A stretch of 64,000 nucleotides of DNA from Phycisphaerae bacterium (GTDB lineage Bacteria; Planctomycetota; Phycisphaerae; Sedimentisphaerales; Anaerobacaceae), in contig JAAYBV010000018.1 of assembly GCA_012744475.1 (NCBI GenBank), forward strand, positions 1-64,000, in the 5' to 3' direction. Shown piece by piece: positions 1 to 35,911 of this stretch (position 1 is its first letter; each line of letters opens with the position of its first letter). Made by a program: the position numbers and the translations under genes. The notes beneath the pieces are model-generated. The model had not been told where the DNA came from. It did not search any database and saw only the letters and a program-made list of their open reading frames with translations.

Positions 1-1235
1 CCCTTGAGCCCGAAGCCGAGAATGATCTCGAACTGCACGTTGTAGTTCCAGACCAGAAGCTCGTGGAGCTTGTAGACGCGATCGAACTCGTACTGGACGT
101 ACAGGGCCTCGCCCTCCGGCGCGCTGGCCAGCCACATGTCATCGCTGACCGTCGAGTGCTGATCGGCAGCGTCCAGGCCGGAGCCGTTGACCGTGTTTTC
201 CGGCCCCACACCTGGCTCGGAGCTCCCGTTGCTGGTGGCAACGATGTTCTGGATCGCGTAGGCAAACGGCTCGGTGGTGAAGTACCAGACCTCGCCCTTG
301 AAGATCGTGTTATCGGGGGCGGCATTGACTTCGTCGATGCGCCAGTAGTACGTCTGGCTGAAATCGAGCAGACCGGCCGGATCGAACGCGGTCGTCGCCT
401 GAGCCTGGCTGGCCAGAACACCCATCGGATTGGCGCGGCTGGCCGCGTTGACGTCGTCAAAGGACGTGCCGAAGTAGACATCGTGCGTTGCCGCGAACTC
501 GCCCACCGTCCAGCTCAGGACGACGTCGCGAGGGACGTCCGTCGCCTCCGTGGCAGGGCTGGGATTGGTCGCCAACGCGGGATCCATCCCTCGCATCGCC
601 TCGGCGATCTCTTCCGGCGTCAGAATGTGGTCAAAGATCCGCACATCGTCGATCATGCCGACCAGGTTTTCGCCCCACTGGTTGCTGGCAATGAGCAGCG
701 GTCCGGTGCCCGCGCTGATCGCCGAACTGGTCAACCGCTCCGCTTCCTCGCCATTGTAGTAAAAGATCAGCCCTTCGTTCTGGCTGGGCACGAAGGTGGC
801 GGCGACGTGCTGCCAGGTGCCCGCCTCCAGCGTAATACTGGTGCTGCTGTGGTCCAGAACGCCGGGCGTGGTGAAACGGACACCGGTTTCATGGCCCTTG
901 AGAGCGTAGTTCCCGGTGCGGCCGACAAAACCCTGCTCGCCGCCCGGCGCATCGGGATTGACCCAGCAGGCGATCGTAATCGCCCCGGTGAGTTCGAGGG
1001 CGTTGCCGCAGTCTACCCAATCGCTGCCGCCCACCTGCAACGCGCCCCCAAGCCTGCCGGCCACCCATTGAGGCGCTCCCGCAAGCGTGCCGTCGTTTCC
1101 GTTTCCGCTGGAATCCCGGGCGACTGTCCCGGAACCCTCATCGAGTTTCCAATGACCAACGAGGTCAGCCGATGCGCTGCCGACCAAATCCAGCAGCAAC
1201 ACAAGCGAAACCAGACATGACAATGTGACGCGCAT
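1..1235 (-). CDS. Secreted LamG-domain (concanavalin-like) protein, 3' end cut by window
   Basis: Reading the minus strand from an ATG at 1235 gives an open frame that runs off the window at base 1, so about 411 codons are visible. A Sec signal peptide (MRVTLSCLVSLVLLLDLVGSASA) opens it. Residues about 25-215 form a LamG/jellyroll domain: LVGHWKLDEGSG start, GAITIACWVNPD, WQHVAATF, GMIDDVRIFDHILTPEEI end. A fibronectin-like segment follows (NPSPATEATDVPRDVVLSWTVG), typical of planctomycete LamG proteins. The last visible part (WLASAPEGEALYVQYEFD) looks like the start of a discoidin-like domain. An AGGAGG ribosome site sits just upstream. The role is probably extracellular glycan binding. No catalytic domain is visible in the retained part. 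Confidence 0.8.
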   Translation of the reverse strand, partial: MRVTLSCLVSLVLLLDLVGSASADLVGHWKLDEGSGTVARDSSGNGNDGTLAGAPQWVAGRLGGALQVGGSDWVDCGNALELTGAITIACWVNPDAPGGEQGFVGRTGNYALKGHETGVRFTTPGVLDHSSTSITLEAGTWQHVAATFVPSQNEGLIFYYNGEEAERLTSSAISAGTGPLLIASNQWGENLVGMIDDVRIFDHILTPEEIAEAMRGMDPALATNPSPATEATDVPRDVVLSWTVGEFAATHDVYFGTSFDDVNAASRANPMGVLASQAQATTAFDPAGLLDFSQTYYWRIDEVNAAPDNTIFKGEVWYFTTEPFAYAIQNIVATSNGSSEPGVGPENTVNGSGLDAADQHSTVSDDMWLASAPEGEALYVQYEFDRVYKLHELLVWNYNVQFEIILGFGLK

Positions 1236-1363
1236 GATCAGTCCTCCTTCAAGACCCGATGAAACGGTATTACGTGGCGCCCGCACACACGTGAGCACAC
1301 ACCTTCTCCGAGATATGATCCAACTGCGTCCGCTTTACGCGGCTTCTCTTCACCTTCCATCCT

Positions 1364-1394
1364 GATTCCGGATTGCCGATTTCGGATTGCGGAT
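1364..1394. repeat. Degenerate 7-base tandem repeat (GATTNSS x4)
   Basis: Four consecutive heptamers, GATTCCG, GATTGCC, GATTTCG and GATTGCG, followed by GAT, lie in the gap between the LamG gene and the pseudopilin gene. The rest of the 1236-1478 gap shows no gene. A 14-base piece of the same pattern recurs near 27489. Confidence 0.5.
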
Positions 1395-1478
1395 CAGCCG
1401 CCAGATGGGAATCCGAAAACCGCAGTCCCCAATCTGCCATCAGGGCTCGGGTTCCTCGCCCCGATCCCTTCATTCGAC

Positions 1479-2303
1479 TCAGTGACTGGGGGTGTAGCCG
1501 AGCTTGCCCCAGCAGCCCTTCTGCATCTGATACAAGTCCTCGAAACCCTCTTGCGTCTCCGGCGTCCAGTTGCCCTGGTGACTGTCCGCGACGAGCCGGG
1601 CCCGCTTGATCGTATCGGTGCCTCTCCATTTCCAATGCTCGACATGCCCGTCGGCAAATGAGATGTTGGTCCCGTCGCCGTGCCGCACCGGCGGGTCGTC
1701 CCACCACTGCTCCTGATCATAGTTGACGGCATAGGCATCCGACGTCATGTACCCCTCGTCGATGAAGACCAGTCGATACGCCGGCGCCGGATTGCGGATT
1801 TCGCTTCGCTTCTTGACGTGAGCGCCGCGCACACCCTGCGTCGCAGGGTGGTTGACGGCGTTCATAGAGAACATGATCGCGTAGTGGAACGCCTCGCCCC
1901 GCCTGCCGGTGGGACAGCGATAGATCTTCTCATTCTTGATGTAAGGCCAGAGCGCCCCGCGACGGATGTCCTCTTCCGCCGCCTCCAGGTCCAGGGGATG
2001 AAAACCGTCAACCCAGGCCAGCTCGTTGCGGTGGTCGCCCCAAGTCTGGTTCGAGTTGCTGAAGCCCGTGGCGCCGTTGACAATCCGATCGTCGTTCTCA
2101 TCGGCGTACATGAGCCAGGCCAGGCTCAACTGCTTGAGATTGCTCAGGCAGGCGGCTCGGCGGCCCTGCTCGCGGGCCCGGTGCAGGGCCGGCATCAGCA
2201 CCGCCATCAGAATGGCGATAATCGCGATGACGACGAGCAATTCGATGAGGGTGAACGCTCTGCGCATCATAGCCCCCCCGCTGAACGTGGACTTGCCGTT
2301 CAT
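1479..2303 (-). CDS. Type II pseudopilin-like protein with H-X9-DG C-terminal signature
   Basis: The 274-residue protein begins with a short basic leader, then the class III prepilin peptidase site and hydrophobic helix [21 protein letters not shown], which should be cleaved and N-methylated by a prepilin peptidase. The distal part has the planctomycete H-X9-DG signature ([20 protein letters not shown]). The family is very abundant in Planctomycetota and its function is unknown; members are assumed to be exported pseudopilins. I chose the ATG at 2303 because GGGAGG precedes it. An ATG pair at 2270 also has a G-rich stretch and would give a shorter leader. It is of the same subtype as the genes at 26636 and 54783. 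Confidence 0.85.
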
Positions 2304-2444
2304 AGGACCTCCCAATGAATAAGGACTTCATCTATTCTACCATCTTACCACGACAGCCAAGTGTCTCACAAGTGGAAAATGGGCAATCTGTTGGCCATTT
2401 CCGGCCGTCGGGCGACCGGCGACGCCGGCGAAGGACCAGCCCCC

Positions 2445-2473
2445 TTGCACCATACGAAGCGCGGGGATATCTT
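2445..2473 (+). promoter_or_regulatory. Candidate sigma70 promoter for the TolB/SUMF1-HDAC/MBOAT operon
   Basis: TTGCAC at 2445-2450 and TATCTT at 2468-2473 are separated by 17 bases and lie about 58 bases before the first gene. The -35 matches the TTGC core of other candidate promoters in this window. Confidence 0.4.
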
Positions 2474-2531
2474 GTTGGGTAGGAAAGGACCCTGATTTCG
2501 ATGTTGGCCTGGTTTTCGAGGGATTCCCACC

Positions 2532-3611
2532 ATGCAGCGTATGTCACTCGCCCTGGGGGCCATACTGGCACTCGCGGGGCTTGCCTCTGTGGAGGCGGCG
2601 GAAGCGGCCGGCTTCGAGGCGGCCGCCGAATCCGAGGCCCCAGCGGTCCGTATGCGACCGAAGCAGATTCCCCTTCCTCGCGAAGCGATCGATCTGGCGA
2701 AGATCCCCTTCAAACTCGTCCACGAAACCTATCGTCGGACCGAGGGAAAGGAGAACTGGGAAATCTTCATGAGGAACGCGGACGGCTCGAATCCCGTCAA
2801 CCTCACCAACACGCCGGACGTGGACGAGATGTACCCCCACGTCTCGCCCGACGGCACCAAGATCTGCTTCGTCGTCGACGAGGGGTTCGGAAGAAACCGC
2901 GTGCGACACGTCTACTACATGAAGATCGACGGCTCCGACCGGGTCCACGTCGCCGAGCACGCGCGCGAGCCCTGCTGGTGCTTCGACAACAAGAGCATCG
3001 CCTACCTGACCGACGAGTACGAGCGGTTCAGCACCCGCGAGTATGCCACCGATGCGCTGATGTTCTACTACCTGGAACACAAGTGGACCAGCCCGCACGT
3101 GAACACGAATCTGCACCACCTCTATGCCATCTGCTGGTCGCCCGACGGTAGGTGGTTTCTGGCGGCGGTCTCCGGGGGAATGGGATACAGTGACACGATC
3201 ATCGCGTTCGACGCTTTTGGCCCGCGCGTGTTCGACCTGGCGGTTTGGGGGGTCAAGGGATGCCGGCCCGAATTCAGCATCGACGGGACCCAGATGGTCT
3301 GGGGCGAGACCGACTGGAATCTCCAGATCGCGGATATCGATCTGAAGGGCCCGGAGCCCCGGGTCGCGAACATCCGCGAGATCGTCCGCTGCGCGCGCGG
3401 ATCCAAGGTCTACCACGTGGACCTTTCGCCCGACAGCAAGTACATTGTCTTCAGCTACGGCCCGTCGCGCGGCGGCCAGCAGGTCGGAGGCATGGCCGAG
3501 GGCTGGAACATCTGCATCGGCGACCTGACCGGCCGATGGGTCCAGATCACCGACGATGGCTTTCACAACAAGGAGCCCGACTGGGTGCCGGTCCCGCAGA
3601 CGGCGAGGTAG
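2532..3611 (+). CDS. Secreted TolB-like WD40/PD40 beta-propeller protein, copy 1
   Basis: A 359-residue protein with an N-terminal signal peptide (SLALGAILALAGLASVEAAEA) followed by PD40-type propeller blades: YPHVSPDGTKICFV, YAICWSPDGRWFLA, PEFSIDGTQMVWG and HVDLSPDSKYIVFSYG. It ends with the NKEPDWVP motif. Such propellers act as periplasmic or surface binding scaffolds and no catalytic motif is visible. It is a close paralogue of the next gene, 41 bases downstream, so a recent tandem duplication is likely. The start has only a weak ribosome site, and the next in-frame ATG (residue 4) is possible. Confidence 0.8.
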   Translation: MQRMSLALGAILALAGLASVEAAEAAGFEAAAESEAPAVRMRPKQIPLPREAIDLAKIPFKLVHETYRRTEGKENWEIFMRNADGSNPVNLTNTPDVDEMYPHVSPDGTKICFVVDEGFGRNRVRHVYYMKIDGSDRVHVAEHAREPCWCFDNKSIAYLTDEYERFSTREYATDALMFYYLEHKWTSPHVNTNLHHLYAICWSPDGRWFLAAVSGGMGYSDTIIAFDAFGPRVFDLAVWGVKGCRPEFSIDGTQMVWGETDWNLQIADIDLKGPEPRVANIREIVRCARGSKVYHVDLSPDSKYIVFSYGPSRGGQQVGGMAEGWNICIGDLTGRWVQITDDGFHNKEPDWVPVPQTAR

Positions 3612-17573: not shown

Positions 17574-20459
17574 TCAGCGTCGAGCCTGTAGCTGCGCTCG
17601 GCCGTCTTTGAGGCCTTCGGCGCGGGCAGTGACACGAATCCGGCCGTTCTGCCCTTCGAGCGTGCGAAGGATCAGCATGGCCTTGCCGTGGAACAGCTCG
17701 TGACTGTCGTCCTGGAACGATTCGAGCGAGAGCGGATTGCCGTTGCCAATGCCGGCGATTTCCGCCGGACCGTCGATCTCGAACCGAACGAGATTGCCGG
17801 CCAGAGGGCAGAGCGTCCCCTTCCCATCGAGCACCTCGACCAGGATGTACGCCAGATCCTCGCCGCTGGCGCTCAGCCGTGTCCGATCGGGCGTCAGGCG
17901 GAGTCTGGCCGGCTCGCCTGCGGTACGCATGGTCGCTTCGCCGATTCTCTTGCCCGCCTTGTACGCCACCGCTTTCAGCACGCCCGGCTCGTACGCGACG
18001 TCATTCCAGCGCAGACGATACGCGTAAGTAACATCGTAGTAGTCCGACTCGCAGTACTCGGGGTAAACGGCAAACTCGGCAACAGCGGCCCACGCATTCT
18101 CTCGCGTCTCGTCGAACTCGATCCGCACGTAGCGTGCCTGCGTGTCCACGCTGTGGAAGATCTGCTTTGGCCCGCCCCAGCGCGGCTCGGCGCTGGCCGG
18201 TTTGGTCACGATCGTCTCCCAGGCGGCCGCATCAGGCGAGACCTTGATCTCGTAGCCGTACAGCTTTTCCTCGCGTTCAAATTCGATCGCGAGGTATTTG
18301 ATGGATTGGACCTGCCCGAGATCAACCTGCCACCATTGCTCGGCGTGGCCGGAAGCAGCCGTCCAGCGGGTGTCTCGGGCGCCGTCGTTGGCGCTGTCCG
18401 GCGTGTGATCGATCTGGCTGCTGCTGGCGGTCGCTGCCCTGCCCTTGGCGAAGTTGGCCGGTCGTTCCGGAATCACGCCTTTCTGCCGGCGTCCGAGCGA
18501 CTTGCCGTTGAGAAACAGCTCGGCCGAGTCACCGTTGGTGTAGACGAACACCGGGACGAGCTGCCCAACGCGGTCGGACCAGTTCCAGTGCGGCAGGATA
18601 TGCACGGTGGTTGTCTCCGGCCGCCAGTAGCTGCGATACAGATAGAATCGGTCTTTCGGCATGCCGCACAGATCGACGATGCCGAAATAGGAACTGCGCG
18701 CCTCCTGGCTGAACGGCGTCGGCTCGCCGAGATAATCGAATCCGGTCCACACGAACTCGCCGGCGACGAAACGGTCGTCGGCCATGAGCTTGAACTCGGC
18801 GTCGGGGATATCCGACCAGGCGGCCGCATTCAGGTCGTAAGAGCAGACCTGCAACGCGTCGTCTGCATAGTCGGTCTTGGTCGTGGGCAGCGGGAAATCG
18901 TAGAAGCCCCGCGTGCTGAGCGCCGAGGCCGATTCGCTGTAAACAATGGGTTTGTCGGGATACTTCTGACGGTAGTTGGCGTATCTCCGGGAGTAGTTCC
19001 AGCCGGTCAGGTCCAGCGCATCGAAGTTGGGCTGGTCGACCATGCCCGGGATGTGACAACCCATCCCCACCGGACGCGTCGGATCGTATTTGCGCACGAA
19101 GTCGCTCATGAACTTCACACGCTCCGGCGTCACGCCCTCGCGGCCGGCGCCGATCTCGTTGCCGATCGACCAGACCACGACACTCGGGCTGTTCCGGTCG
19201 CGCATCACCATGTTGCGGATCTGCCTTTCGCCAAATTCCTCCAACGGCGGCTCGCCGCGCTGCCGGCCGGCCGTGCCGTCCCACTTGTCAAAGGCTTCGT
19301 CCCAGACCACGAACCCCAAGCGGTCGCACAGCGACAGCAACTCCGGCGCCGGCGGATTGTGACTGGTGCGGATGGCGTTGACGCCCATCTCGCGCATGAT
19401 CTCCAGTTGGCGCTCCATGGCCCGCGGATAGAAGGCGGCGCCGAGCGGGCCGTGGTCGTGGTGCAGACAAGCGCCGTAGAGCTGGAGCCGCCGGCCGTTC
19501 AGATGGAACCCGTCGTCGGCTGTGAATTCGAACGTCCGGATGCCGAACGTCGTGTCTTCCATATCGGTGATCGCGTTCTCGGTGCGGACGATCGTCTTGA
19601 CGGTGTAGAGATGCGGGTGTTCGACGTCCCATCGCTGGGGGTTCTTGATCGTGAACGTCTGATCCACCTCGGTCGCGCCGCCGGCCGGCACGTTGGTTTC
19701 TCTCCTGCCGGAGGCAACCGACTTACCCTTCGGGTCGAGCAAGATAACCTCAATCGTCGCTTTGGACTCGGCATCCAGATGATTGTCCACCGTCGATCGC
19801 ACGCGAACCATGGCCGACGCGTCCGTCACCTGCGGCGTGGTCACGTACGTGCCCCAGTGCGCCAGATGCACCGGCTCGCAGATCGCCATCGTCACCTTGC
19901 GATAGATCCCCGCGCCCGGATACCACCGTGTGCCGTGCTGGCGCGTATCGGCCTGGACCGCGATGACGTTCGTCTCGCCGAACTTCACGTAGGGCGTGGC
20001 ATCGACGCGAAACGACATGTAGCCGTAATCCCAAACGCCCGCCAGTTGCCCGTTGACGTACACCTTGGGAAAGGCCATCACGCCGTCGAAGTCGAGATAC
20101 ACCCGCCGGCCCTGGTCAGCCTCGTCGAGCCGGAACGTCTTGCGATACCACCCCACCCCTCGCCAGGGCAGCTTGCCCGCGTAGCCGTTCTCGCTGGGAT
20201 TGAACGGCCCTGCAATCGCCCAGTCATGCGGCAGATGCACCGCCTGCCAGGCCGAATCGTCGAAATCCAACTGCGTGACATTCTCGGCCTGCTCGCCCTT
20301 GACGAACAGCCAATCCGCGTTGAAGCGTTCGATCCGGCGCGGTCCGCCGGCGCAGACCGCCGTTTGTAGTGTGCCCGTCAGGGCATACATACCCAGAGCC
20401 ACTGCAAGGAAATGAATGTAGTATCTTGCGACGCCACGGCAAACTCGCGTGCTTCCCAT
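17574..20459 (-). CDS. Glycoside hydrolase family 2 beta-galactosidase with inserted discoidin (F5/8 C) module
   Basis: A 961-residue secreted GH2 enzyme. It has the sugar-binding jellyroll (HLPHDWAIAGPFNP, YLDFDGVMAFPKVYVNG), an Ig-like domain, the TIM barrel (IRTSHNPPAPELLSLCDRLG, GEFVWTGFDYLGEP), catalytic acid/base E435 in VWSIGNEIG and nucleophile E509 in IVYSESAS. A discoidin-like module at about residues 690-815 (TASSSQIDHTPDSANDG, WWQVDLG) is followed by the DUF4982-type C-terminal Ig domains. It probably removes galactose from pectic side chains. The ATG at 20459 is chosen because AGGAG is nine bases away; an ATG at 20465 is closer. A dispersed repeat forms part of its signal-peptide codons. 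Confidence 0.92.
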   Translation of the reverse strand: MGSTRVCRGVARYYIHFLAVALGMYALTGTLQTAVCAGGPRRIERFNADWLFVKGEQAENVTQLDFDDSAWQAVHLPHDWAIAGPFNPSENGYAGKLPWRGVGWYRKTFRLDEADQGRRVYLDFDGVMAFPKVYVNGQLAGVWDYGYMSFRVDATPYVKFGETNVIAVQADTRQHGTRWYPGAGIYRKVTMAICEPVHLAHWGTYVTTPQVTDASAMVRVRSTVDNHLDAESKATIEVILLDPKGKSVASGRRETNVPAGGATEVDQTFTIKNPQRWDVEHPHLYTVKTIVRTENAITDMEDTTFGIRTFEFTADDGFHLNGRRLQLYGACLHHDHGPLGAAFYPRAMERQLEIMREMGVNAIRTSHNPPAPELLSLCDRLGFVVWDEAFDKWDGTAGRQRGEPPLEEFGERQIRNMVMRDRNSPSVVVWSIGNEIGAGREGVTPERVKFMSDFVRKYDPTRPVGMGCHIPGMVDQPNFDALDLTGWNYSRRYANYRQKYPDKPIVYSESASALSTRGFYDFPLPTTKTDYADDALQVCSYDLNAAAWSDIPDAEFKLMADDRFVAGEFVWTGFDYLGEPTPFSQEARSSYFGIVDLCGMPKDRFYLYRSYWRPETTTVHILPHWNWSDRVGQLVPVFVYTNGDSAELFLNGKSLGRRQKGVIPERPANFAKGRAATASSSQIDHTPDSANDGARDTRWTAASGHAEQWWQVDLGQVQSIKYLAIEFEREEKLYGYEIKVSPDAAAWETIVTKPASAEPRWGGPKQIFHSVDTQARYVRIEFDETRENAWAAVAEFAVYPEYCESDYYDVTYAYRLRWNDVAYEPGVLKAVAYKAGKRIGEATMRTAGEPARLRLTPDRTRLSASGEDLAYILVEVLDGKGTLCPLAGNLVRFEIDGPAEIAGIGNGNPLSLESFQDDSHELFHGKAMLILRTLEGQNGRIRVTARAEGLKDGRAQLQARR
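20362..20387 (-). repeat. Partial copy of the GCCCT-S-ACGGGC dispersed element inside the GH2 signal-peptide codons
   Basis: Read on the minus strand, this 26-base stretch is TATGCCCTGACGGGCACACT followed by ACAAAC and differs by one base from the copy at 22613-22638. It contains a GCCC/GGGC hairpin. It encodes residues of the GH2 N-terminal hydrophobic region. Confidence 0.65.
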
Positions 20460-20526
20460 GACCATGTTCTCCTTTTGCGTGCTGAGGTGTTGTCCTGCCC
20501 AGAGATACCCGATGCCTTTCCGCCGG

Positions 20527-22710
20527 TCAAGGCATCCGCCGCAGCCCCTCCCAGCGGATGCGCCACGTGCCGTCGTCCGGGAAGCCGGGGTTCGGGCGGT
20601 CGGGGCAGCCGTCCCACCCCGCTGCCATCATTGCCACCGCCGCGAGCAGTCCCCCGTTGCCCGGCAGGTAAACGGGCAGGCGAGGCGATTGATAGTTGTG
20701 TCCATTGGCGAGATAGCGGTTCTTCTCGGCGTCGACGAACAGCGCATCGATCGCCCTGGCCGGCTCGCCCAGACGGGCGGCGGTCATCGCCATGACGGGA
20801 TAGTCCCAGCCCCACGTGCTGGGCCAGTCCCACTCGGCCATCACGCGATCGAGCGTCCGTCGCATCACCGCCGGATCGATCAAAGGCGTTTGCGGCAGGA
20901 AGCCCAGAGCACACAGCATCGACGGGTGATCCTGGAAGATCGTGTACGGTTCGGTCTCGATCGCCGCGTAGACGCCGTCGCGGATGGTCGGACGCGAGAG
21001 ATGGCGTATCACGCGATCCCATGGGGCGTCGCGCTCCAGGCCGAGCCGCTCGCGCCACTTCTGCGCCGTCTCCAGGGCCCAGTGCCAGTAGGCCAGTTCG
21101 AAGGTCGGGTTCAGCGTGCTCCTGCGATAGCGTCCATAGCTTTCCTGGGCCGGGATCATGGCCGGTCCCAGCACATAACGCTGACCAGCCTCGTCCCACA
21201 CGGGATACGACGCCATGAAAGCGGCGGTCTCGAACACGATGTCACGATATCGCTCGAGGGTCGCACGGTCGCCGTGGGCGCGGTAGCACAGCTCGGCGTA
21301 GTAGATCGGGTGCGGCTGCTGCCAGACCAGGAACACGCCCACGCTGCTCGGGCTGTCGCGTCCATCGGGCGAGGCCATCTTGGGCCAGCGAACCCCTTCA
21401 TAGCCCTGAAGCTGCGCCGTCGCCCGCGCCGCCGGCAGGATCGACTGATACCACGACAGGCTCCGCTCCAGCAACGGCAACCGGTCCCACAGCGCGAAGT
21501 GAACCGCGTGCCACCAGTGCATCTCCAGATGGAATTTGCCGAACCAACTGTTGTAGACCAGGCCGGTCTCCTGCGGCGGCCGGTCGCCCGAGCAGTTGAC
21601 CGCCATGAGGTACTGCGAGAGCACCACTCTCCGCTCCAGTTCGGCGGCGCGCGGGTCGGTGCACTCGGAGAAATCAATCGCTCCGCCGCTGTGCCAGAAT
21701 CGCTCCCAATGGTCGCGTGCGGCGGCCCGAACCGCTTCGAAGCCGGAAACAGATTCGGAAATCGGCTCGGGACAGAAGGTGAACGCCACCTCCAGCACGT
21801 GATTATCCTGTCGATCTATTTCGTATTGATGTGGCGCCGTACTGCGGATTCGGGTGCCCTGTGATCCAACCACGCGGACGCAGTAGCGGTCCGCGTCGAG
21901 GGTTCGCGTCAGGTCGGCTTGACAGCCGGCGATTTGAGCCTGCGTCGTATGGCGATCCGGATGGTCCCAGTCGGCGGCGTTGCGCCAATCAGGATTGCCG
22001 TAAGGAAATGCCAGCAAGATTCGCAGCCGGCCTTGTTCGACGAGGGGAGATTCGATGCGAACCGCCAGGATGTCACGCGTCGGATGGCACACCGTCAAGA
22101 CTTGAACGGGCTGGCCCTCAACCTTGAACTCGCTGGCCAGCAGCCCGGACCACAGGTCGAGAGTCTGCGACGTCTCGGTCAGGTCCTCGATGCTTGCGGC
22201 CGAGCCATTCGATTTCGCCAGAAGCAGGCCGATCCTGCCCAGGTGCAGACGATGCGGATTGGCGCGCAGCCACTCTGCGGCCGGCAAGTAGCCGCCGGAA
22301 CGAGCGGCGCCAGAGGCATAGGGCACCTTGCGTCCGGCCACGTCGTACTCCTCCAGCGCATCGGCCAGCCGGTAGCCGTCGGGATTGGGGCAGGCGTGCC
22401 AGCCCCACTGCGATTGCGTGCACAGCGGCGTACCTCGCTCGTGGTACTCGGGGAAGGTCTGAAGGCCGGTGATGTCGGCGGTGAAGGCGAACTGGCCGTT
22501 GCCGACACTCAGCCCAGTCAGCGCGTCCGCGCGCGTCAGTGTGACATTGTGTCGCGTCACCAGGGCATGGCGGTCGAGCTTGTAGTGACGCCGTAAGGCG
22601 TTATCCTCAGGGTATGCCCTCACGGGCACACTACAAACAGCGTTTGACGACCCGACAGTCGCGATCAGCAGCGCGGTGGCAACGATCATCGATGTCAATG
22701 TGTCGGTCAT
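20527..22710 (-). CDS. Secreted (alpha/alpha)6 six-hairpin glycosidase, GH65-like
   Basis: A 727-residue protein with a signal peptide (SMIVATALLIATVGSSNA), an N-terminal beta-sandwich (TRADALTGLSVGNGQFAFTAD) and an alpha/alpha toroid (FHLEMHWWHAVHFALWDRLPLL, YEGVRWPKM, LNPTFELAYWHWAL). The pattern resembles GH65/GH95/GH15-type six-hairpin glycosidases. The conserved acid cannot be assigned with certainty. The ATG at 22710 has GGAGGG five bases upstream. It sits 66 bases after the AKR gene and 67 bases before GH2. A structured dispersed repeat supplies residues just after the signal peptide (AVCSVPVRAYPEDNALRRHYK). Confidence 0.75.
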   Translation of the reverse strand: MTDTLTSMIVATALLIATVGSSNAVCSVPVRAYPEDNALRRHYKLDRHALVTRHNVTLTRADALTGLSVGNGQFAFTADITGLQTFPEYHERGTPLCTQSQWGWHACPNPDGYRLADALEEYDVAGRKVPYASGAARSGGYLPAAEWLRANPHRLHLGRIGLLLAKSNGSAASIEDLTETSQTLDLWSGLLASEFKVEGQPVQVLTVCHPTRDILAVRIESPLVEQGRLRILLAFPYGNPDWRNAADWDHPDRHTTQAQIAGCQADLTRTLDADRYCVRVVGSQGTRIRSTAPHQYEIDRQDNHVLEVAFTFCPEPISESVSGFEAVRAAARDHWERFWHSGGAIDFSECTDPRAAELERRVVLSQYLMAVNCSGDRPPQETGLVYNSWFGKFHLEMHWWHAVHFALWDRLPLLERSLSWYQSILPAARATAQLQGYEGVRWPKMASPDGRDSPSSVGVFLVWQQPHPIYYAELCYRAHGDRATLERYRDIVFETAAFMASYPVWDEAGQRYVLGPAMIPAQESYGRYRRSTLNPTFELAYWHWALETAQKWRERLGLERDAPWDRVIRHLSRPTIRDGVYAAIETEPYTIFQDHPSMLCALGFLPQTPLIDPAVMRRTLDRVMAEWDWPSTWGWDYPVMAMTAARLGEPARAIDALFVDAEKNRYLANGHNYQSPRLPVYLPGNGGLLAAVAMMAAGWDGCPDRPNPGFPDDGTWRIRWEGLRRMP
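22580..22636 (+). repeat. Two-hairpin dispersed element, best-formed copy, inside the six-hairpin glycosidase gene
   Basis: TTGTAGTG (22580-22587) pairs perfectly with CACTACAA (22629-22636). Inside are ACGCC-GTAA-GGCGT (22588-22601) and TGCCC-TCAC-GGGCA (22615-22628), giving a cloverleaf-like shape. A related copy lies at 35711-35771, and partial copies lie at 20362 and 23818. Confidence 0.65.
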
Positions 22711-22753: not shown

Positions 22754-22777
22754 AGGGGCGAATGATGATTCGCCCCT
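22754..22777. repeat. Palindromic repeat (GGGGCGAAT type), copy 1, at the AKR stop codon
   Basis: AGGGGCGAATGATGATTCGC followed by CCCT forms a near-perfect hairpin. The minus-strand stop codon TAG of the aldo/keto reductase (22776-22778) lies within its edge. Related copies are at 25568 and 35114. Confidence 0.75.
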
Positions 22778-23744
22778 ACTTTCGCGTGCCGCTGGCATCG
22801 ATGACCTTGGCGCCGGCGGGGCCGAGCGTCTTGCGGATGGCGAACACGTCCGGCCGCTCGATCCGCCGCCCCAGCGCGCCGGCGGCTTCGGCGACCTGAT
22901 CGGGGTTTTTGAACCCGCAGACCGCCACGTGGATCGCCGGGTGCATCAGCGTGGCCGCCAGAATCAACTGGTACAGCGTCAATCCATACCGCCGGGCCAT
23001 CGGCGCCAGCGACTGAACCGCCCGGCACAGGTCGCGGAATCGCTGCCCCTGAAAATCCGGATGATGTTTGCGAAAATCCGCGAACGTCTCGTCGCCACGG
23101 TACTTGCCCGTCAGCAGGCCCTTATGCATCGGCGAGTAGATCATCACGCCAAGGTCCTGCCCCTGGCAATAGGGCAACAGGTCGTCCTCGCCGGTCGGGT
23201 CGATCAGACTGTACGGAGGCTGCACGACGTCGTAGGGCCCGAAGCGCCGCTGGGCCCGCACCTGCTCGACGCTGTGATTGCTCACGCCGATCGTGCGTAC
23301 CTTGCCTTGTTCGCGCAACTGATCGAGCACGCCGGCCACCTCCTCCAGCGGAGTCATCAGGTCATAGAAGTGCAGGAGGTACAGATCGATCCGTTCGACG
23401 CCCAGACGCTTCAGCGACGCCTCGCACCGTTCGATCAGGTGCTCCCGGCTGAGATCGGGATACCGCGAGCCGTCCGGGTTGAAGTGGTTGTACACCTTCG
23501 TGCAGACGACGATCTCGCCCCGCGGAAGATCGCGGATCGCCTCGCCCAGCGTGCTCTCGCCATACCCATCGCCATAGGCATCAGCCGTGTCGAAGAAGTT
23601 GATCCCTTTGTCAAACGCCAGCCGGACCGCCGCAAGTATCTCCTTCTTGTCCACCTCGCCCCAGAAACGGGGACTCAACTGCCACGTGCCAAAGGCAACC
23701 GGCGATACCGACAGCCCGCTTCGTCCCAATCGAACTCGTTCCAT
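22776..23744 (-). CDS. Aldo/keto reductase
   Basis: A 322-residue cytoplasmic (beta/alpha)8 oxidoreductase. The catalytic tetrad is visible: Asp in FFDTADAYGDG, Tyr in the same motif, Lys in VVCTKVYN and His in YLLHFYDL. NADPH-binding residues lie in the C-terminal part (GFKNPDQVAEAAGAL). It is the first gene of the minus-strand saccharolytic operon, so it may reduce a sugar released by the lyases or hydrolases. GGGAGG lies 11 bases before the ATG, which is a long spacing. The stop codon comes from a palindromic repeat. Confidence 0.9.
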   Translation of the reverse strand: MERVRLGRSGLSVSPVAFGTWQLSPRFWGEVDKKEILAAVRLAFDKGINFFDTADAYGDGYGESTLGEAIRDLPRGEIVVCTKVYNHFNPDGSRYPDLSREHLIERCEASLKRLGVERIDLYLLHFYDLMTPLEEVAGVLDQLREQGKVRTIGVSNHSVEQVRAQRRFGPYDVVQPPYSLIDPTGEDDLLPYCQGQDLGVMIYSPMHKGLLTGKYRGDETFADFRKHHPDFQGQRFRDLCRAVQSLAPMARRYGLTLYQLILAATLMHPAIHVAVCGFKNPDQVAEAAGALGRRIERPDVFAIRKTLGPAGAKVIDASGTRK

Positions 23745-23817: not shown

Positions 23818-23846
23818 TATGCCCTGACGGGCCGACCACGAACAGC
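23818..23846 (+). repeat. Degenerate partial copy of the GCCCT-S-ACGGGC dispersed element
   Basis: TATGCCCTGACGGGC at 23818-23832 matches the copies at 20362 and 22613 and keeps the GCCC/GGGC hairpin. The following bases CGACCACGAACAGC are a degraded form of CACTACAAAC. Confidence 0.5.
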
Positions 23847-25567: not shown

Positions 25568-25595
25568 GTAGGGGCGAATGATTATTCGCCCTCAC
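25568..25595. repeat. Palindromic repeat (GGGGCGAAT type), copy 2, between glpK and glpF
   Basis: GTAGGGGCGAATGATTATTC followed by GCCCTCAC forms a hairpin with a GGGCGAAT stem. It begins 21 bases after the glpK stop. It could stabilise the glpK mRNA or reduce glpF expression. Confidence 0.75.
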
Positions 25596-30377: not shown

Positions 30378-30540
30378 CACATCGACCACGCATTCTCTCC
30401 CCGCGACGCGGGCACCCCACTCCAGTAGCCCGGAAGATTGCCCAAGCGGATTGACCCACGCGCTCACACGGATCATAATGGGCCTGGATATCCTGAGAAT
30501 GACCCCATGGCAGCTTCAGCTCGGTGGTATCCCGAAGACT

Positions 30541-30606
30541 CGTAGGGTGTGCAATGCACACCAATTCGATCGCGCGATGAGGAAGGTGTGCGGTGCACAC
30601 CCTACG
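30541..30606. repeat. MITE-like 66-base inverted repeat (GTAGGGTGTGC type)
   Basis: The 22-base arms are CGTAGGGTGTGCAATGCACA plus CC at the left and the complement-like GGTGTGCGGTGCACACCCTA plus CG at the right. The arms match at 20 of 22 positions when inverted. It lies in the leader region of the exonuclease gene. No target duplication is evident. Confidence 0.7.
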
Positions 30607-30649
30607 AGGCTGTCACCCAGGTCCGAAAGGACCGCGAAGGAGCGCGACA

Positions 30650-35150: not shown

Positions 35151-35616
35151 CATTCCGAGAGTGGGTCTGTAAGCCGAGTTCTGTACCCGCCGCGAGGGCG
35201 GGTGGCGATCATTTATCTGGACCGGCCGTTGCCGACCGGCTCTCCCGCCGAAACGGGACGCGACCTACCCGCCGGCCGAACGACCCGAAGGCCATTCACA
35301 CCCGGGCCAGGTGCGACCGAAGTCGACCGGCTGCTTGGTCTTGCAGGCGGTGGGGTTTACCCTGCCGACGACGTCGCCGCCGTCGCGGTGCGCTCTTACC
35401 GCACCTTTTCACCTTTGCCTGTGCCCCGAAGGGCCATCGGCCGTGTGTTTTCTGTGGCACTTTCCCTGGGGTCGCCCCCGGTGGCCGTTAGCCACCACCG
35501 TGCCCTGGGTCTCCCAAACGCGAGATCTCGCGTTTGGGGTCCCCTTCCTGCTCGGACTTTCCTCCCTGCCTCGCACGAAGCGATGCAGAGCGACCGCCCG
35601 ACCCACTCTCGGAATG
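35151..35616 (-). ncRNA. rnpB: RNase P RNA, bacterial A type
   Basis: On the minus strand the 466-base RNA has the conserved parts in the right order: GAGGAAAGTCCGAGC near the 5' end, CACAGAAAACA, GGTAAGAGCGCACCG, GGGTAAACCCCACC, AGATAAATGATCGCC and ACAGAACTCGGCTTA near the 3' end. The ends pair perfectly over 16 bases (CATTCCGAGAGTGGGT with ACCCACTCTCGGAATG), forming P1. It is the ribozyme that matures tRNA 5' ends. The ORF-like frames across it are not genes. Confidence 0.97.
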
Positions 35617-35710
35617 AACCAGTTCCGAATTGACAATTGACTGTTGATTATCTGGCCCAAGGCCAACTCGCATTGTACCACTATGACGAAGTCTTTTCCA
35701 GTGGCGCTTC

Positions 35711-35771
35711 GCAGTGGCGTCGTAAGACGCTACTGCCCGCGAATAACATGCCGTCACGGGCACACGGCAAA
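35711..35771 (+). repeat. Two-hairpin dispersed element, diverged copy
   Basis: GCAGTGGCGTC-GTAA-GACGCTACTGC (35711-35736) is an 11-bp stem with a GTAA loop, followed by TGCC-GTCACG-GGCA and CACACGGCAAAC. Compared with 22580-22636 the inner stem has compensatory changes while the GTAA loop is kept. It fills part of the 295-base gap before the glycosyltransferase, in which I see no gene. Confidence 0.55.
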
Positions 35772-35911
35772 CGGACCGTCCCTATCGGCCTTGACGGAAC
35801 AGGGGGCAGGTCTCTACACTACGCCCGCGCACGTTGGCACGATTTCTATCGCCGCCACATTGCTTCATCGCCCGAAGGAGAAGATCGAGGCAACAATCGG
35901 CGTCGCACGTT

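Follow-up and report, generated by a model that had tools for sequence, protein, structure and literature searches.

A REPIN-type repeat with two dissimilar GTAG-tagged arms in a Phycisphaerae bacterium, and two of its copies in genes for secreted proteins

REPINs are described as doublets of REP units arranged as inverted repeats, with singlets as their remnants and a clover as their possible configuration (PMC3116915). The GTAG-tagged REP families of Di Nocera et al. (2013, PMC3733652) form head-to-head (HH) dimers with GTAG outside, including heterodimers, and the description of GTAG-1 and GTAG-2 gives them an unpaired dinucleotide between GTAG and the stem; the repeat analysed here has the same features. 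According to the same paper, REPs occur in Planctomycetes, and in-frame REPs and rickettsial palindromic elements (RPEs) have already been described, with the authors' warning that N-terminal cases are often extragenic. A group 3 RAYT was shown to cleave substrates of the GTAG-plus-hairpin kind in the work on REPtron Mb (PMC8266576).

We analysed an element in a stretch of 64,000 nucleotides (hereafter, the window) that belongs to the 5.75-Mb genome, in 118 contigs, of a Phycisphaerae bacterium. With high confidence, we assign this element to the REPINs, also named head-to-head REP dimers or BIMEs: two GTAG REP units of differing class stand face to face in it and would travel, now or in the past, together as a single non-autonomous unit.

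Anatomy, dispersal and covariation of the repeat

The element occupies positions 22579-22637. Its left arm, of the Y class, lies at 22579..22603 on the plus strand (foot CTTGTAGTG, stem ACGCC/GGCGT, loop GTAA, then TA). The right arm, inverted and of the Z class, lies at 22613..22637 on the minus strand (foot TTTGTAGTG, stem TGCCC/GGGCA, loop GTGA, then TA), and a 9-nt spacer (22604-22612) separates both arms. ACGCC- and GCGTC-like stems make up the Y class and TGCCC-, TGCTC- and GGCCC-like stems the Z class, two classes that were defined after the units had been seen. The general REP unit consists of the foot TTTGTAGTG and a 5-bp stem with a GNNA tetraloop, usually followed by TA. The foot contains GTAG and then TG, and this GTAG is unpaired and 5' of the short hairpin, as in GTAG-tagged REPs. 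As single-stranded DNA, the REPIN folds into a two-hairpin clover (-16.3 kcal/mol), in which the foot of one arm pairs with the inverted foot of the other to form the outer stem TTGTAGTG/CACTACAA; the z score is -5.1, and none of 200 shuffles folded equally well.

A second copy in the window has a Y-class left arm at 35708..35732 (plus strand; TTCGCAGTG, stem GCGTC/GACGC, loop GTAA, TA) and a decayed Z-class right arm at 35748..35772 (minus strand), whose foot TTTGCCGTG breaks the outer stem. An additional decayed Z-class arm (23819..23843, minus strand; family D19) shows 80% identity to the right arm of the REPIN. A preliminary description of this DNA had drawn the copy at 22580 as an outer stem with two inner hairpins, which agrees with both the sequence and the clover fold. 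It had also noted two base pairs changed on both sides in the copy at 35711, A-T to G-C and C-G to T-A, and these are the changes between ACGCC/GGCGT and GCGTC/GACGC. That copy does keep its GTAA loop and inner stem, as was stated, but with its broken outer stem it forms no clover. The GTAA tetraloop is real but is only one form of the GNNA loop, and the element is indeed dispersed, with one arm of about 25 nt, alone or paired, as the repeating unit rather than the 57-nt whole. An RNase P RNA of bacterial class A (Rfam RF00010, 201 bits) lies at 35154-35609 on the minus strand, and its 5' end is about 100 bp from the REP copy at 35708-35772.

The search of the genome with a pattern centred on the left arm (at most 2 mismatches) gave 79 matches, compared with 2 for the reversed pattern. 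Surroundings were fetched for 75 of the 79 sites; 4 without a hairpin by eye were left out. Together with the window and two RAYT loci, the fetched stretches came to 466,553 bases. Here the foot (at most 1 mismatch) with a full stem occurred in 72 units, compared with 0-3 for six shuffled feet, and a looser cut gave 100 units in 70 clusters. A covariance model, the search for more copies that the preliminary description had proposed, brought the genome's count to at least 148 units at E<=1, with 150 of 2442 first-look candidates scored. A scan of the window for GTAG followed by any hairpin was unspecific: 49 of the 290 GTAG sites passed, and four other tetranucleotides scored a higher rate.

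Covariation was judged by pair counts with shuffle and slide controls on an alignment (A1) of 72 distinct units, one of 73 being omitted for its shifted register. Our results showed that 96.1% of the stem cells were paired, whereas shuffles gave 64.4% and sliding no more than 46.1%, and that 107 cells were changed on both sides, versus 37.5 in shuffles. Both-side changes appeared in four of the five stem pairs; that number and the count of pair types were no higher than in shuffles. Since a minimum of 4 pairs had been a condition for selecting the 72 units, the stem count was repeated on the foot criterion alone. All 5 pairs were then present at 62 of 83 sites of this genome, in 11 stem types, and at 54 of 68 sites of relatives, in 10 stem types. 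None of the control-foot sites, in this genome and the relatives, had all 5 pairs. The changes separate the stem classes ACGCC, GCGTC, TGCCC, TGCTC and GGCCC, and they thus testify to selection that acts on the repeat as a unit to be recognised, not to a job at each site. The covariation noticed earlier is strong, but it mostly distinguishes stem subfamilies that spread by copying.

Neighbouring units were convergent, that is, with their GTAG ends outside, in 26 of 30 pairs, which is the inverted REP pair of REPINs, and the spacers of paired units measured 2-69 nt. One Y arm and one Z arm were combined in 24 of the 25 typed convergent pairs; about 47% was expected from the class frequencies, which are biased because the starting pattern favours ACGCC stems. 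At the cut used, 44 of the 70 clusters were single, many with a decayed partner recognisable by eye. With 81% of the DNA called coding by a simple home-made codon-usage gene finder, 61 of the 70 clusters were intergenic, 5 overlapped gene 3' ends and 4 were inside genes. This high copy number (at least 148 units), dispersal and mainly intergenic placement are those of GTAG-tagged REPs.

Other repeats share the region. Several REPINs (L049, L062, L070, L081, L082 and others) have a Z arm that encloses a different palindromic repeat, GCCCCTTCGGC...GCTCAGGGCAGGCTC. Another GTAG repeat type, GTAGGGGCGAAT...ATTCGCCCC, occurs at 22755-22779 (minus strand) and 25568-25592 (plus strand). The former is kept at the same place in two congeneric genomes, G001 and G002, and is thus older than the REPIN 120 bp away. 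In a third type, at 30536-30611, GTAGGGTGTGC...GCACACC and its mirror copy face each other as an inverted pair with arms that are 89% complementary.

The units might also be RNA elements kept by the host, whatever the way they spread, whose hairpins in transcripts would terminate transcription or make mRNA more stable. Such a role has been proposed for REPs elsewhere (PMC3733652), and the arms fold well single-stranded, covary and are mostly intergenic. Yet the covariation includes the conserved unpaired GTAG foot, which is the part that a RAYT reads according to the REPtron Mb work (PMC8266576), and the intergenic clusters lay as frequently between divergent genes (12) as between convergent genes (11). 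Rfam at gathering score matched RNase P alone in the whole window, and congeners lack the REPIN copy at 22579-22637 in their version of the gene. We consider this explanation unlikely. A riboswitch or other structured RNA was rejected separately, since Rfam gave no match except RNase P and the copies differ in place and stem class. A GTAG foot with a hairpin typifies the repeats that Y1/RAYT enzymes recognise, in agreement with the transposase-recognised hairpin that was suggested at the outset beside a folded RNA.

Copies within two secreted-protein genes

The REPIN at 22579-22637 lies in a gene on the minus strand (20527..22710) for a 727-aa protein that had no match in Pfam or NCBIfam. The protein begins with a signal peptide, MTDTLTSMIVATALLIATVGSSNA, recognised by eye, which is followed directly by the REPIN-encoded VCSVPVRAYPEDNALRRHYK and then by the conserved start of the mature protein. 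G001 and G002 lack the whole REPIN: the orthologous site measures 16 bp in them and 61 bp here, a net gain of 45 bp that keeps the frame. Those 16 bp of congener sequence are missing here, at 22578-22638, so that the insertion may not have been a simple, clean one. Other orthologues of the gene with a printed N-terminus also lack the insert, and one locus (L123) has a run of N there. The REPIN is probably tolerated as a 20-residue linker between the signal peptide and the mature part.

The adjacent gene (17574..20465, minus strand), which encodes a glycoside hydrolase of family 2 (GH2; beta-galactosidase-like, 963 aa), hosts a second REPIN. Its Z-class arm, TTTGTAGTG-TGCCC-GTCA-GGGCA-TA, is at 20363..20387 on the plus strand, inside the GH2 signal peptide. 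Its Y-class arm, at 20418..20444 on the minus strand, is decayed (TTTGCCGTG-GCGTC-GCAA-GATAC-TA), and none of 400 shuffles was as similar to the Y consensus. In G001-G004 the GH2 orthologues lack the second REPIN, and their signal peptide is shorter. The similarity of the GH2 spacer to two congeners was reached by 27 and 19 of 400 shuffles, to two others by 335 and 350 of 400, to the Y consensus by 17 of 400 and to another REPIN by 85 of 400; this spacer may derive either from the older signal peptide or from the REPIN.

Both in-gene copies were taken as coding because the upstream start is kept in congeners without the insert. If translation started downstream instead, both would be non-coding and would sit in 5' untranslated regions, a situation described as common for REPs at ORF 5' ends (PMC3733652) and one that some repeats of this genome resemble (e.g., L070). 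For the two genes at hand this is quite improbable: in each, a start that resembles a signal peptide precedes or spans the REPIN, with the beginning of the mature protein close behind, and the insert-free congeners keep the upstream start together with a Shine-Dalgarno-like sequence.

Read as coding, the two in-frame copies, set beside their insert-free orthologues, are a clear instance of secreted proteins that have acquired a mobile hairpin. The copies stand in frame at the signal-peptide junctions of two adjacent secreted-protein genes, and arms and spacer of the second REPIN would account for most of the GH2 signal peptide (VCRGVARYYIHFLAVALGMYALTGTLQT). REPINs of this genus could on these grounds be ready-made coding modules, a suggestion that we make with considerable doubt; if true, an enzyme would have had its export signal reshaped by the recruitment of a mobile hairpin repeat. 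A general preference for signal-peptide junctions was rejected, as called genes contained only 4 of the 70 clusters, and the window accounts for 2 of these. Nor do we claim signal-peptide enrichment, since several apparent N-terminal cases, L070 among them, may start downstream of the repeat.

RAYT transposases and the distribution of the repeat

The genome has RAYTs at C22 (NF047646, 101.9 bits, above the cut-off), C77 (59.6 bits) and C32 (37.4 bits, in two pieces). The repeats that flank them are a GGTGGCA-CGGCAAGC type, GTAGGGGCGAGGCATGCCTCGCCC and a GTAGGGTGG type, and none of the three is flanked by the TTTGTAGTG repeat. A link of this repeat to any of them via flanking repeats was rejected, because each has other repeats. 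A REP-type (Y1) transposase, for which the preliminary description had suggested looking, is therefore present in the genome but in none of the three loci beside the repeat. The C77 RAYT (L093:2097-2699) carries its own repeat in frame within the coding sequence, as GRARHASPLPA, a feature that has been described for subclass 2.4 (PMC6006769).

RAYTs were present in 65 of the 89 genomes of the family. Among 114 fetched loci with RAYT-like ORFs, many of them overlapping, TTTGTAGTG units enclose the RAYT at a single place. This is L314 (the same as L352 and L356), which carries the label candidate division KSB1 and has a frameshift in its RAYT. The sole relative of this RAYT found in the family (42% identity, in 1 of the 89 genomes) is that of G075, an open 206-aa frame (L318:1486-2106) with the sister repeat TTTGGAGTT-CCGCC-TTCA-GGCGG on both sides. 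Repeat and RAYT vary together between L314 and G075, which fits a cognate pair, and the cognate RAYT seems to be missing from the genome studied here.

By analogy with the TnpA_REP literature, a RAYT, as an HUH Y1 transposase, would bind the GTAG foot and hairpin of each arm in single-stranded DNA, cut beside both arms and then move the pair. The cognate enzyme would later have been lost from this genome, and the frameshift-broken RAYT between the same repeats in the KSB1-labelled contig would be a fitting one. The REPIN at 22579-22637 would have inserted, with the frame preserved, where the signal peptide meets the mature protein part. That the palindrome arose by chance, or that the repeat is an unrelated one with no transposase link, we consider extremely improbable; the notion is favoured by the lack of an adjoining RAYT in this genome and by the unspecific loose scan but opposed by the 79 matches against 2 in the control, by the stem covariation and by the repeat on both sides of the L314 RAYT.

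At no more than 1 mismatch, the repeat had a match in 20 of the 89 family genomes, four of them with a single, probably chance match. This genome had 31, three of its five congeners had 8-15 and the other two 3 and 0; G037 had 12, and all nine genomes of genus g40 had 2-78. In named genomes there were at least 107 stretches, and among the matches listed were planctomycetes and records labelled Desulfobacteraceae and KSB1, labels that are the submitters' own, with GC content as the sole check. One of these records, S10.Bin129 (labelled Desulfobacteraceae), had 36 sites in its genome and a GC content of 48-55% at the loci. With the same core sequence in Phycisphaerae and in Desulfobacteraceae- and KSB1-labelled records, one repeat type may have crossed phyla. 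These data document a REP/RAYT repeat family in uncultured Phycisphaerae.

RAYT matches with frames of 1200-1350 aa led to valyl-tRNA synthetase genes that contain an in-frame RAYT-like domain of the HUH/Y1 transposase type. One such ORF matched both TIGR00422 valS (709 bits) and NF047646 (84.5 bits), each above its cut-off. We compared 14 loci (L319-L332; L319 is G001:C13:125000-129500) from 14 family genomes chosen for long frames. The insert was at the same site in 14 of 14, before VTVATTRPETMLGDTA(or G)(V or I)AMNP and directly before VTVATTRPETML, and NHVH and the tyrosine of the YDH motif were invariant. Host and insert identities were weakly correlated (r = 0.27; 82 of 2000 permutations were as high), perhaps a hint that the insert has moved here more than once, and it resembles a transposase that homes to an essential gene. 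At E<=1e-20, the insert matched nothing in the Phycisphaerae genome studied here. In the literature searches, no publication dealt with such an insert by its title or the opening of its abstract; REPs, not RAYTs, are mentioned in tRNA synthetase genes (PMC3733652).

An in-frame relative of the same RAYT-like domain occurs in another family of the phylum (L334, G121:C5; ORF 1-3090, minus strand). The long ORF resembles a DNA methyltransferase by its NPPY motif, recognised by eye, and peptide repeats such as DGLYASVGHVEPDR adjoin. This RAYT-like subfamily may enter genes in frame repeatedly. The valyl-tRNA synthetase insert is more surprising than the REPIN and would matter more if it holds up.

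Comparison with known systems

The preliminary description knew of no described family of this shape, a view that did not hold: the shape is that of a REPIN, a head-to-head GTAG REP heterodimer, and an undescribed family was rejected on the descriptions in PMC3116915 and PMC3733652. The REPINs with RAYTs of Bertels and Rainey (2011, PMC3116915) are described with the same inverted REPs, variable spacer, single remnants, mostly extragenic placement and possible clover. Their repeat sequence is another one; here the arms differ in stem, and the genome shows no RAYT flanked by the present repeat.

The GTAG-tagged REPs (PMC3733652) share the GTAG tag, a short stem with complementary variants and some in-gene copies. 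The stem has 5 bp here and 6-9 bp in most of those families, a comparison made with the description of those families. The same geometry, namely GTAG, 2 nt, a 10-nt palindrome and a 4-nt loop, is reported for REPtron Mb of Marinomonas sp. MWYL1 (PMC8266576), but in another organism and with another loop sequence. The RPEs, as reviewed in PMC3733652, are likewise short palindromic repeats in frame within protein genes; RPE-4 and RPE-6 are placed in the CGTC superfamily, said to have no transposase of its own, whereas the present repeat has a GTAG tag and 61 of its 70 clusters are intergenic. The repeat of this genome is of a known kind and needs no new category, and it is ordinary except for its two in-frame copies.
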